From contig JAFSJJ010000013.1 in assembly GCA_017439345.1 (NCBI GenBank), positions 62,001-126,000 on the forward strand: a DNA stretch of 64,000 nucleotides. Direction: 5' to 3'. Every line of letters starts with the position of its first letter. Positions within the stretch are counted from its first letter, which is position 1. The DNA is from Synergistaceae bacterium. GTDB taxonomy: Bacteria; Synergistota; Synergistia; Synergistales; Aminobacteriaceae. This document shows, one piece after another, positions 41,287 through 54,811 of the stretch. The notes below the pieces were generated by a model. The model saw only the letters and a list, made by a program, of their open reading frames with translations. It searched no databases and was not told the DNA's origin. A program made the position numbers and the translations under genes.

Positions 41287-41325
41287 TTTTACGTAATTCA
41301 CGCAATAAAAGATCAGTAATTATAC

Positions 41326-41337
41326 GGGGGGGGGGGG
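41326..41337 (+). repeat. Poly-G tract (G12) just upstream of a -10 box
   Basis: Twelve consecutive G at 41326-41337, in otherwise AT-rich sequence. TATAAT lies at 41353-41358, so the tract runs into the zone where a -35 would be and would change promoter geometry when its length changes. Confidence 0.9.
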
Positions 41338-41358: not shown

Positions 41359-41440
41359 CTTCATGTTTTTCAAAGTTCCAAAAGTTTCAAATAGTTTTAC
41401 CAGATTCATAATTAATAAATATAGAAAGGGGAATTCTATC

Positions 41441-44400
41441 ATGTTTAGCATGAGGAAATTTTTCGCGCTCGTTTTTATGGTGCTCATGTGGGTAAGTTCG
41501 GCATGGGCGGCTGACTATTACGTTGTACCATCTTCAAATGGTGAAAAAATAAAATATGTAAAAGTAAACACCAGTGGTAACGGAACGCTAGATACAAGTC
41601 AGTGGACAAATGCAACAACAGAGACAACACTTAGAGCTTTATTGACTAATGAAGATAATGATGCAAACGCTATAGAAGATAATTCAATTGTCTATATGCA
41701 AAAGGGAACTTATAAACCTGAAAAAAGTCTCAGAATTACGAAAAGTGTAAAAATCTACGGAGGTTTCTCTGGCAATGAGACAACATTAGATGCTAGAGAC
41801 ATTACAACAAACGAAACTATCATTAGCGGAACAAATATCACGGAGGTAAAAAACGGAGACACACTAAGCAGCATTTTCTATATAAATCCATATTTTAAGG
41901 AAGGCGGCGGATATAGAGATGCTAATGATTGGCAGACAAATAAGGATGTTACGCTTGACGGCTTAACAATCACAGAATTAACAGCTAATATTGCTTTTTA
42001 TGGTGCTGGTGTACGAGTTGAGCTTGCAGAAGGTAATGTCATAGTTAATAACTGTAAGATAACATCTAACAAAACTTACTCAGGTAATAAGAGGGGGTCA
42101 GGTGGAGGTGTTTATATCTACGGTGGGATTTTAACAATTACAAATTCTATTATTGCAAATAATGAAGCGGCGAGCGGTGGAGGTGGCATTGTGGTAGGTG
42201 ACTCCTCTTCTGATCCTGGTGGAGCTAAATTAAAGGTAAATAATTGTACTATTGCTGGCAATAAATGCGGTGTGGATGGTGGCGGTATTTTTGTATGGAA
42301 AGGAAGTGCAGAGATCGAGAATTGCACTATCATTAATAATGAGGCCGGCAATAATGGTGGAGGGATACTAATTCACCAAGAATCGCCTTCTACTTCTGAA
42401 AGCACAGAAGTTATTAACTGCACATTGATTAATAATACTACAACAAAAGATGATGCTGTCGCTAGTCAGATTATGGCAAATACAAGTACTAAACTTACTG
42501 TCACGAACTCCTTAATATGGAATCAAGCAACGGCAAATTTAATTTACATAGGTTCCGGCGTAACATCAACCTTCACAACCTGCGCATTCCCTGAAGGCTT
42601 CGAGTTAGATAACGTAACCCCCGCTGCAACAGTCGCCACGACATGGGAAACCCAAAGCAGCCGACTCATCAATCGCTACAGTCTCCGGCGTAGCTCACAC
42701 GGTCTACAGAATAGAAGATAACGATGCACTTAGCGGACTAGCAGGCAAGGGAACGAAACTCGACACAGTAACTACAGACCAGCTCGGTAACACGAGAAAC
42801 GATCCCCCGTCAATCGGAGCTGTTGAGAAAGTCGAGACTCCCGTAGTTTCACCGACAACCCTTACAATCACAGGAACAGAAGGCACCGCAATAACTTCAC
42901 AGACTATAACAGTTACTAAGGGTGAAGATGTTACTTGGTCAGCTTCAGGGACTCTCCCGGACGGACTGAAGGCAGAGTCGGCAGATAAAACTTTCACAAT
43001 TTCGGGGACTCCAGCTGTCGGAAGTGCAAAGACTGACGCATACACTTACACAGTTACGGCCAAGAACAGCGCAGGTTCGACTCCTGTTACAGTAACGATA
43101 ACTATCAAGGCAGTAGCCCCCGTCCTTGATCAGACCGGCGAAATCTCTAAAACATTCACCGAAGGCGTAAAAATCGAAGACATCACAATTAAAGCCACAT
43201 CAGGAAGCAATTTAACATGGACAGCGGACTCCTCAAAACTTCCCAAAGGCTTAACGGGTAAAGAAGCAGCGGACAAAGCGAGCTTCACAATTTCCGGAAC
43301 TCCTGAAACAGGCAGCGCAGGTTCATACACTTATGCGGTAACAGCAGCAAGTGCAACAGGCGACAAAGCTGAAGTAACGTATAAAATCACTGTCAACGCA
43401 GCAGCAGCTTCAGTGAAACCGGTATTAGACACGACAGAAAAGAGCATTAACGCAGTCGAAGGCACAGCTATAGAAACTCTAACGATTAATGCAACTGCAG
43501 GCGACAATTTAACTTGGTCAGCTTCAGGAACTCTGCCGAACGGTCTTAAGGCTTCATCAGCTGATAAAACTTTCACAATCTCAGGGACTCCGGCGGTCGG
43601 AACTGCTCAAAATAAGGCTTACTCTTACACGGTCAAAGCTGCGAACTCTGCGGGCGAGGCTTCAGCGGTCATCACTATAACTGTAAGTGCTTTAACGGCT
43701 CCTGCACTTGATGTTACTACAGCAAGTATCACTGCAAATGAAGGACAAGAAATTGACTCGCTAACTATCACAGCAACAGCAGGAAATAATCTCACTTGGA
43801 CGACTTCAGGAGATTTACCTGACGGCTTAACAGGTACGGCAGCAAGCGATAAGATGAGCTTCACAATTTCCGGGACTCCTTCAGACAGCACGGCAAGAAT
43901 GGACGCTTATACTTACTCAGTTACAGCTATGAACACAGCAGGCTCGGCTTCAGCAGTAATTACTATCACAGTAAACAGTACGGGCGGCATTAATGACGAA
44001 GTATCGAACGCTTTAGAGGAACTTGCAGCAACAGGCGAGTCAATGACCCTTGAGGACGCTTTAACGAAGAGTCTCGGACTCAGTGAAGAACAGCTCAAGA
44101 CTGTAACAAGTATCACTATTCCGAGCAACATTACAGATTTAGGCGATCTTGCTTCACTCCTGCCGAATCTCGAAGCAATTGACTTGACCAGCGCAACAAG
44201 TTTGACTGAAGTAGACTTAAGGGGCAACACTTCGATTAAAGAAGTTACTATTGCAGGAAATTCAAGCGTTACGACACTTGATTTGAGAAACAGCGCAGTT
44301 GAGACTCTTGACGCAACAGGCTGCGACGAACTCACTGAAGTTAATATTGCAGGCAACACGAACATTCAGACACTGAGTCTTGACGAATGTCCCAACATCG

Positions 44401-51904: not shown

Positions 51905-54744
51905 TTAACGCTTGCTCACTGTGAATAATGCTGCTGCAAGGATCACTGCAAATAAATTGAATCCGAAGTTACAGCCGCCACCGCTGCTGCCAAGATAATT
52001 AGCTGCTTCTTCTGAGTCCTCTGCAATAATTGTTACGTCCATGCTTTGATTGTTGAATCCAGTCTCGTAATAATATTTTATGCTCACAGGAGTCCCGCTG
52101 AACTCTGCAAGTCCTGACTCTGAGTCATAACTCACTGATAATTCACTGCCTGACTCGTCATAAGCCGTAATGCCTGCGACTTTCTCAAGGTTCGGAGCGT
52201 CTGAAGTCTCGTTATCTGATGTGAGAATCTCCCCTGTGTTGAAGAATTGCGAGAAGTCAAAAGTTTTTCTGCCGTACCAGCCCGCGACTCTCTGGCCGGA
52301 GCATATGAACTCTCTTAAGGACTTTAACACGTTTGCTCTATAGTTGAACCATGAGAAGTGATTCTCTTTTATGTCAAGATAGTTAAGATTTCCGCAGCCG
52401 TCAAGAGTCAAATTCTCCGTGTCTATATCACATGATGAGCATTCGAGCTTCTGAAGGTTCGCGCAGTTCTTTACGTTGATTGAAGTTATATTTGTGCTGC
52501 TTACATTGAGTTCGATTAATGAATCGTTAGACTCTGCATTGATATCCTCAAGATTTGAACACCCTTTAGCGTTGACTTTCTCTACTGTGCTGCCCGTTAG
52601 AGTCAGAGATGTAATATTAGTGTTCTGAAGGTTTACGTCTTTCACGTTAGCGGGAAGTTCGCTCAAGTCTGCCTTCTCAAGATTCGAGAGACCTGATAAA
52701 TCAAGAGTTTTAAGATTCGTGAAGTCAGTAAAATCTATCTGTGATAAATCAGTAATCTTTTTGTCGGGATTGTCGCTCAGTGTAAGAGTCTCTATAGCTT
52801 TTTTCTCGTCAGTGGTCATCTTGTCAAGACTGCCTGCGTCTGTAGTCTTTCTCTTCTCGTAGACATGAAGCGTGATGTTCTTGACTCCTGAACCGGTTAT
52901 ATTTTCATGTGCGGCTTTAGCTGTTATCGTGAGTGAGTAATCTCCCTGCAATGCTGAGTCACTAACGCTGAGAGTTCCGTTGTTAATCGAGACTCCGGAA
53001 ATACTTTTATCAAGAGTCCATTCAATAGAGTAATCATTTGCTGTAAGAGTCTTGCTCGTACCGTCTGAATACGTGCCTTTAACACTTGCTGTATACGGTG
53101 ATGTTATAGCCTTGCCTTCTGTAACTGTGAGAGTCAGCGCGCCTGTAACTGACACTTCAAGAGCTGAAAGAGTTACCTGCGATTCTTGTTCTTGTTCTTG
53201 TTCCTGTTCTTGCTCCTGCTCCTGCTGATTCTGAGTGTAATTCGCCGTGTAAGTTCTATCACCCGTTGAGCCTTGATTAATCGTTACAGTTTGAGTCGCT
53301 GCCGTTAAGTCCGTCCCTGTCCATCCGGTGAACGTATAATTTTCCTTCGTGGGATTAGCAAGAGTGAATGAGGCTGTCTCAATCGTGTAGCTTGCAGGAT
53401 TAGTCGCGCTTCCTCCGTCAAGATTGTATTTTATCGTGTAAGTTATCGGAGTCCATGTAGCTGTTAAAGTCTTATCGCCTGTTGACCCCTTCGCAATTTC
53501 TGTGATTGTAGAGCCGTCAAGAGTCCACCCCGCGAACGTGTAGCCTGTCTTAGTCGGAGCTTTGAGGGTGATTGAGTCATCAGCAGTGTATCTTGCAGGA
53601 TTTGCAGAGTCGTTTGTACCTCCGTTGAGTTCGTAAGTTATCTTGTAATTTGTCAGAGTCCACTGAGCATAAAGAGTGATTTCTCCGTAATTTTCTACGA
53701 GTGAGCTTATGTCCTGTCCGTCAGTGTAGTTTGTTCCAGTGCCGTCTGCTTTAGTATTCCAGCCTTTGAACGTGCTGCCGTCTCTGGTGAAAGCGTTTGC
53801 GGTGAGAGCCTGTGAAATGCCGTAAAGAAATTCTTGATTACTCATTGTTCCGGTGCCGTTGTTAGGGTCAAATTTCACGGTGAATTTCAGCGGGATTAAC
53901 TTTACATTATCGATTGCATTAGCTGCCAGAGTTCCGCTGTATTTTGTTGACGTGCTGGACTCGTTGACGAAAATTTTTCCGTCTGCGATTTTGGGATTTG
54001 GGGAATAACTCGTAGACAGTATAAAGTCTTTTGCATTCATGTAGCCTAATGTTATCGTGCCGCCAGAGTCGCAAAAGATTCTGGATTCGCCTGTGCCGGT
54101 TACTGTAACTTGTCCGCCGCTGATTGTTACGCTGCCGTTGTTGCTATAAATGTCAGCCTCGTTATTCGTACTCGTGACGTTGACATTGCCGCCGTTGATT
54201 GTTACGCTGCCGGAGCTACCAATGTAAGCGTTGCTCGTGCTGGTGACGTTGACATTGCCGCCGTTGATTGTTACGCTGCCGTTGTCGCTATAAATGTCAG
54301 CCTCGTTATTCGTACTCGTGACGTTGACCGTGCCGCCGTTGATTGTTACGCTGCCGTTGTTGCTATAAATATGAATGTAAGCCTGACCGCTATCGTTGGT
54401 AATCTCCAGCGTTCCTGTCCCTGCGCTCTGGCCGTAAATGACGAGTGAAGCAATTCCGCTTATCTTATTTGCTGTAAGTTTTGCCCCGTCGCCCAAGATG
54501 AGATTGACGGTGCCGGAGTTGGGTAATGTAATATCATCGTTTACGGTTACAGATCCATTGACGTAATTCCATCCTTCTGTAAATTGTGTTGTGTTTGTAG
54601 TTACGTTTGTTACTGTTCCTGTTGTTTCCTTAGTCTCTCCGTTCTCATCTATGTACGTGACGGCTTCAGCTCTAAGCCCCCCCCCGCAATCAGTAAAAAT
54701 ACGCAACTAGTGAAAAGAAGTATGTATCTATGAAGTTTTCTCAA
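51905..54744 (-). CDS. Phase-variable Synergist-CTERM surface protein (out of frame as given)
   Basis: An AGGAGG site (54759-54754) is followed 9 bases later by TTG 54744, which starts a signal peptide MRKLHRYILLFTSCVFLLIA. That frame runs into a G9 tract and stops within about 31 codons. The long frame begins after the tract as LRAEAVTYIDENGE. With 10 (or 7) G residues the two join to a full signal peptide with an AEA cleavage site. The mature protein has Gly-rich beta-strand repeats (GSVTINGGNVNVTST), two InlB/Listeria-Bacteroides-type repeats (YELNGGTND and GYTFAGWTLDG), a QE-rich linker, an Ig-like part, a leucine-rich part and a Synergist-CTERM tail (SSGGGCNFGFNLFAVIL). As given it is OFF. 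Confidence 0.85.
53181..53228. repeat. Hexanucleotide repeat coding for (Gln-Glu)n
   Basis: About seven near-identical 6-base units (TTCTTG/TTCCTG/CTCCTG on plus) encode the EQEQ linker. In-frame length change would only alter linker length. Confidence 0.75.
54111..54372. repeat. Four direct repeats inside the CTERM protein gene
   Basis: Units of about 60-78 bases share CCGCCGTTGATTGTTACGCTGCCG; units one and three are almost identical, including the GTCAGCCTCGTTATTCGTACTC segment. They encode the GSVTINGGNVNVTST repeats and could recombine to change repeat number. Confidence 0.8.
54677..54685. repeat. C9 (G9 on the coding strand) tract in the signal peptide of the CTERM protein
   Basis: Nine C on the plus strand. 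In the coding strand it falls between the LLIA signal core and LRAEA. The upstream frame needs a number of G with remainder 1 on division by 3. Confidence 0.9.
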
Positions 54745-54811
54745 AGTAAATTACCTCCTGAACAAAAATTTTATGCTTTGAGTTATGTGCAGGTGAAAAT
54801 TATATAACAAA

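Follow-up and report, generated by a model that had tools for sequence, protein, structure and literature searches.

Introduction

The closest described systems are the poly-G/C contingency loci of Campylobacter jejuni and Helicobacter (capsule, LOS, fucosyltransferase). Like the tracts described here, these number in the tens, are about 8-15 bases long, lie in surface-glycan and surface-protein genes and stand in random frames, and the enzyme classes overlap, including FucT-type fucosyltransferases. Campylobacter and Helicobacter lack MutS1 and MutL, and we know of no flanking motif described for their tracts. The Synergistota genus analyzed here differs in having both MutS1 and MutL, and in that its tracts also lie inside the signal peptides of Synergist-CTERM proteins.

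Three further systems bear comparison. In Neisseria (the NalP/MspA tracts and the porA promoter), the homopolymer is in the coding start or between -35 and -10, as in one promoter tract described below; Neisseria differs in phylum, sorting system, and flanking motif. Synergist-CTERM proteins (TIGR04564) are the class to which the C-terminal tail of our focal protein conforms. Diversity-generating retroelements are alike in diversifying surface proteins at specific sites marked by a cis-signal, but differ in that adenines are substituted rather than homopolymer length changed, and nine genomes with the motif described here have no reverse transcriptase match.

The initial annotation of this DNA had proposed a switch that was undescribed for Synergistota, and our reading of the literature agrees. 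In open-access full text, we found no paper on phase variation in Synergistota, on phase variation of Synergist-CTERM proteins, or on a motif tied to poly-G tracts. Switches of this type are known; to our knowledge, their occurrence in this phylum and protein class is new, and the motif most of all.

Results

A G9 tract puts a putative signal peptide out of frame with a surface protein

The window, a 64-kb stretch of DNA, is part of a 2.54-Mb genome (G000; 46 contigs, 98% complete). The AGGAGG-driven TTG start at 54744 proposed in the initial annotation is present letter for letter on the minus strand: the Shine-Dalgarno sequence, by direct reading, is at 54754..54759 and the TTG is at 54742..54744, with a spacing of 9 nt. 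Support for this start comes from a paralogue at the edge of contig C2, in which an ATG with GGAGG occupies the homologous position, 59 nt ahead of the tract of that gene. The TTG opens the coding sequence for the n- and h-regions of a putative signal peptide, LRKLHRYILLFTSCVFLLIA (54686..54744, minus strand; translation judged by eye), which runs up to a tract of exactly nine G (54677..54685, minus strand) that sets the frame and is followed directly on its 3' side by CTTAGAGCTGAAGCCGTC.

As the annotation had also stated, the nine G residues shift the signal peptide out of frame with a long protein. The TTG-started frame, as assembled, stops after 31 residues, and a frame of 933 aa, open from stop to stop (51905-54706), lies one frame away. 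Its remainder after the tract begins LRAEAVTYIDENG and encodes 923 aa plus a stop (51905..54676, minus strand), with an LRAEA cleavage region, List_Bact repeats, and LRR (PF09479, E=7e-26; PF23952, E=1.5e-6; TIGR02543, E=4e-22). The C-terminus has the form GG-C-N followed by a hydrophobic tail, and the Synergist-CTERM sorting domain (51926..51985, minus strand) scores 23.0 bits against TIGR04564, passing the curated cut-off of 22.5 bits and bearing out the assignment to this class. Judged by eye, the N-terminus of the joined frame has a basic n-region, a hydrophobic h-region, and an AEA cleavage site.

The window contains a second tract, an intergenic G12 (41326..41337, plus strand) that precedes the ATG of a surface-protein open reading frame (41363-42721) by 25 nt and itself stands directly after the sequence motif described below, here GTAATTATAC (41316..41325, plus strand).

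Long G/C tracts in the genome are far in excess of chance

There are 53 G/C runs of at least 8 in the genome, four of exactly 8 and 49 of at least 9 (lengths 9-15). Extrapolation from the decay of the shorter runs predicts fewer than one run of 9 or more per genome. In the 380 kb around the tracts, G/C runs of lengths 4-7 numbered 668, 151, 25, and 3, and those of lengths 8-15 numbered 4, 12, 10, 11, 9, 4, 2, and 1; A/T runs in the same DNA were gone by length 9. This bimodal length distribution rules out that the G runs arose by chance.

Tracts are found in surface-protein and glycan genes and in promoters

By automated sorting, 27 tracts are genic with G on the coding strand, five are genic with C on the coding strand, and 21 are intergenic or unclear. 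Genes with tracts include the glycan enzymes GT32 (capsule synthesis, Caps_synth), GT10 (a fucosyltransferase with the FucT N-terminal domain, FucT_N), GT1, GT2, GT6, and LicD, nucleotidyl (NTP) transferases, one of them adjoining PEP mutase, methyltransferases (TylF, FkbM, and others), an AlgX-like O-acetyltransferase, LPS genes, and large surface proteins. The tract is inside or just past the signal peptide in at least seven surface or exported proteins, and one intergenic tract (C41:131590) is in a promoter spacer, TTGACA-G15-CATG-TATAAT. The tracts are thus long homopolymers whose length sets a reading frame or a promoter spacing, far above chance in number and concentrated in surface and glycan genes, as in contingency loci.

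Three tract-bearing surface proteins had unusual features. The first (L034:440; G000:C8:440) has a G9 near the 3' end of the gene for a 1300-residue protein, upstream of the C-terminal sorting segment; from its position, the length of this tract would switch between anchored and tailless forms rather than between ON and OFF. The second (L037:1381-3981; G000:C8:74482) has an 11-base tract just past the signal peptide, an aerolysin-like domain (PF01117, E=8e-7), and a GlyGly-CTERM-like tail. The third, a paralogue of the focal gene (L025:3737-3979; G000:C45), encodes a near-perfect eukaryotic ubiquitin (PF00240, E=2.5e-30), with 71 residues that match human ubiquitin with few changes. The ubiquitin comes after a signal-like segment, lies behind a G9 tract of its own, and is joined to List_Bact repeats, LRR, and a Synergist-CTERM-like tail; it was probably acquired from a eukaryote.

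Frame breaks are concentrated at long G/C runs

Of the 32 genic tracts, seven are in frame (ON) and 25 are out of frame (OFF), a split compatible with random thirds. Frame breaks were found at 16 of 19 G/C runs of at least 7, and at 2 of 24 runs that were either G/C of length 6 or A/T of length 7 or more. These numbers bear on whether the focal gene is an ordinary pseudogene in which a frameshift fell in a homopolymer by chance. The frame is indeed broken in the assembled sequence, but the 923-aa remainder is fully open, the start, the Shine-Dalgarno sequence, and the C-terminal sorting signal are intact, and 25 otherwise intact genes broken at exactly such sites do not look like decay. We consider decay of the gene extremely unlikely.

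Tract lengths differ between paralogues

Relatives of the 923-aa protein in congeners are distant, mostly with 30-40% identity, and those that the named genome collection yielded include none with a Synergistota label; we therefore compared lengths among paralogues. At the homologous signal-peptide site, the focal family has G9 (contig C5, focal), G7 (C2), G9 (C12), GGGAGGGGGG (C20), and GGG (C39), and on C45 a G9 stands ahead of a different protein body. A second family, that of the AlgX-like O-acetyltransferases, has G12, G12, and G10 at one site in three paralogues of congener G052, G12 in G050, a tract of its own nearby in G070, an opposite-strand tract in the focal genome, and no tract in many other species. 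From these sequences, the distribution suggests repeated independent acquisition of tracts in one variable loop.

Homopolymers are error-prone in sequencing and assembly, and the true focal tract might be of another length that is in frame in every cell, leaving the gene constitutively ON. Assemblers do appear to struggle at such tracts: of the 168 tracts in four congeners, 9 begin no more than 50 nt from a contig's first base, where about 0.3 would be expected by our own arithmetic. Mixed tract lengths in the reads would cause such contig starts, as would trouble with poly-G; the breaks also fit real length mixtures. Neither fifty long G tracts nor the motif ahead of them would arise from error, the frame breaks are confined to long G/C runs, and paralogues differ at the same site, including a G7 that is short enough to call. 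Error is, in our judgment, a very unlikely explanation. Separately, two contig ends in G052 (L155 and L199) terminate in G17/G18, both preceded by the same TGTCGAGTAGT, which could reflect a repeat or a library artefact.

Polymerases can slip on homopolymers of 9 or more. If transcriptional slippage, or a frameshift by the ribosome, took place at the G run, OFF DNA could yield a steady low level of full protein, and DNA length would not be the control. Homopolymers of eight or more have been discussed as sites of transcriptional recoding (PMC3711429). Recoding would conserve length and frame, whereas the occurrence of tracts in both strand orientations and in promoters, and with differing lengths, fits a process at the level of DNA; we regard recoding as highly improbable here.

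A conserved motif precedes the tracts on the G strand

On the G strand, the sequence TRCGTAAWTT lies ahead of G/C runs of at least 7, in most cases at a distance of 6-11 nt. A de novo search of the tract flanks, read on the G strand, returned TACGTAATTTTACCTA, which scored about twice as high in likelihood as far-upstream and downstream controls. In the focal genome and many congeners, the cis-motif is about TRCGTAAWTTNNCYNA, within roughly 20 nt 5' of the tract on the G strand. The pooled consensus, T-R-M-G-T-A-A-W-T-Y-N-M-C-Y-N-A, is a near-palindrome whose 12-mer core is mostly 6-11 nt before the tract, and the 3' side of the tract tends to YA. At the focal locus, the motif instance is TGCGTATTTTTAC (also given as TGCGTATTTTTA; 54693..54705, minus strand; held-out p = 0.0067), with the 12-mer core 8 nt before the G9. 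Conservation of the motif within the focal paralogue family is not independent evidence, because there the motif also encodes the signal-peptide h-region.

The association is strong statistically. With similar flanks removed, the motif score was 140.5, versus 52.9 +/- 4.5 in 40 dinucleotide shuffles (z = 19.5). In two-fold cross-validation, against a null of 16,138 45-mers, 40% of held-out tracts were recognized at p<0.01 and 53% at p<0.05. The pattern GTAAWT-N(2-14)-G8 had 46 matches in the genome, with minus-strand tracts counted more than once, versus 0 for the reversed control. The motif is absent before G4, G5, and G6 runs (4, 4, and 8%, with a null of 5% by design); it precedes 3/3 G7 runs and 69-91% of runs of at least 9, and among these run-length data only those for G7, like the cross-species results, are independent of training.

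The motif is 5' on the G strand irrespective of gene direction, and also between genes. It accompanies 17 of the 21 intergenic tracts and 3 of the 5 whose genes are on the C strand, and is therefore a property of the tract rather than of the gene; the same tracts rule out that it reflects a coding constraint. Away from tracts, it occurs in the focal genome at about chance level.

The loci might be ordinary contingency loci in which the motif serves as a binding site with a regulatory or structural function, or records how tracts originate, and has no effect on slippage. This alternative rivals only the role that we propose for the motif. About 20-25% of the tracts in the focal genome have no recognizable motif, and the alternative is favored by the absence of any difference in length between tracts with and without the motif and by two congeners (G087 and G061) that keep many motif-less tracts. 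The constant 5' position on the G strand for either gene direction, the chance-level frequency elsewhere in the genome, and the link to runs of at least 7 but not to shorter ones speak against it. We see it as a reasonable possibility, somewhat short of probable.

The motif is widespread in the genus

The pattern GTAAWT-N(2-14)-G8 is shared by many species of the genus and almost absent beyond it. A motif model built from the focal genome only recognized 43-60% of tracts in G052, G063 (54% GC), G065, and G085 (p from 3e-7 to 1e-3), and almost none in G087 and G061. The motif is thus not needed for a species of the genus to bear tracts, because G087 and G061 have many without it. In G087 (L139-L182), TA comes immediately after each of the 29 tracts examined, with no upstream motif, and several intergenic ones sit between TTGACA and TAAAAT; this genome has a second, different tract context within the genus.

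In a MutS tree, motif-bearing species make up two of the three main clades, and the third has almost none. The well-supported branches require no fewer than 8 label changes, which rejects a single gain of the motif across the genus; losses and several gains are both possible. We also rejected a phylum-wide phenomenon, since the G9 runs inspected in other families lack the motif, are GC-rich, and for the most part have a length of exactly 9, and a viral origin, since the 24 pattern matches in 2.9 million viral contigs look like chance and are mostly G9 without motif context.

Mismatch repair genes are intact in the focal genome, and nine motif-bearing genomes have no reverse transcriptase match

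MutS1 and MutL are intact in the focal genome (mutS1, 835 bits; mutL, 405 bits), ruling out hypermutability of the Campylobacter/Helicobacter type through loss of mismatch repair. In the tract-rich genome G052, mutS1 (G052:C138:229-2749; L333) has, as assembled, a frame change near residue 244 that splits it.

Nine genomes with motif tracts (G046, G048, G050, G052, G054, G059, G062, G075, and G082) had no match to the reverse transcriptase family PF00078, which rules out this enzyme as required machinery at the sensitivity of that model. A reverse transcriptase of about 360 aa is encoded in the focal genome (L293; G000:C18:62554-63174) and also in G085, G063, G074, G047, and G060; it is possibly part of a diversity-generating retroelement, and its distribution is unrelated to that of the motif.

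Discussion

The focal G9 is very probably a slipped-strand contingency switch, one of about fifty motif-associated poly-G switches that vary the cell surface. The initial annotation had likened the tract to those of contingency genes, and the genome upholds this comparison: it has about fifty tracts in the classical functional classes, near-random frames, length differences between paralogues, and few breaks at G6 or A/T runs. We infer that the switching is reversible. Slippage during replication would change the number of G by one, and one length class in three would join the signal peptide to the surface protein. In this ON state, the protein would be exported and held at the surface by its Synergist-CTERM tail; the other length classes would be OFF, giving the 31-residue or a similar dead peptide, and the assembled focal sequence would be one such OFF state. 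The fifty or so switches would act on surface proteins, on capsule and LPS glycan enzymes, and on promoters.

With MutS1 and MutL both in place, the tracts may need something to keep them unstable. A protein that binds at the motif might promote or preserve instability despite intact mismatch repair, although that a factor bound there keeps the tracts unstable is only a guess. More specifically, a dedicated factor with sequence specificity could recognize the motif and make, extend, or destabilize the G tract next to it, a proposal we hold as tentative and on balance doubtful. Such a factor would mean programmed, site-directed homopolymer mutation in a mismatch-repair-proficient cell rather than passive slippage, which we likewise think possible but unlikely; we know of no targeted mutator of this kind.

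If our interpretation is right, an uncultured genus of Synergistota would have a phase-variable repertoire of surface proteins and glycans about the size of that of Campylobacter, together with working mismatch repair. The shared motif would make it testable whether bacteria can direct homopolymer hypermutability by a cis-signal, and which protein reads that signal.
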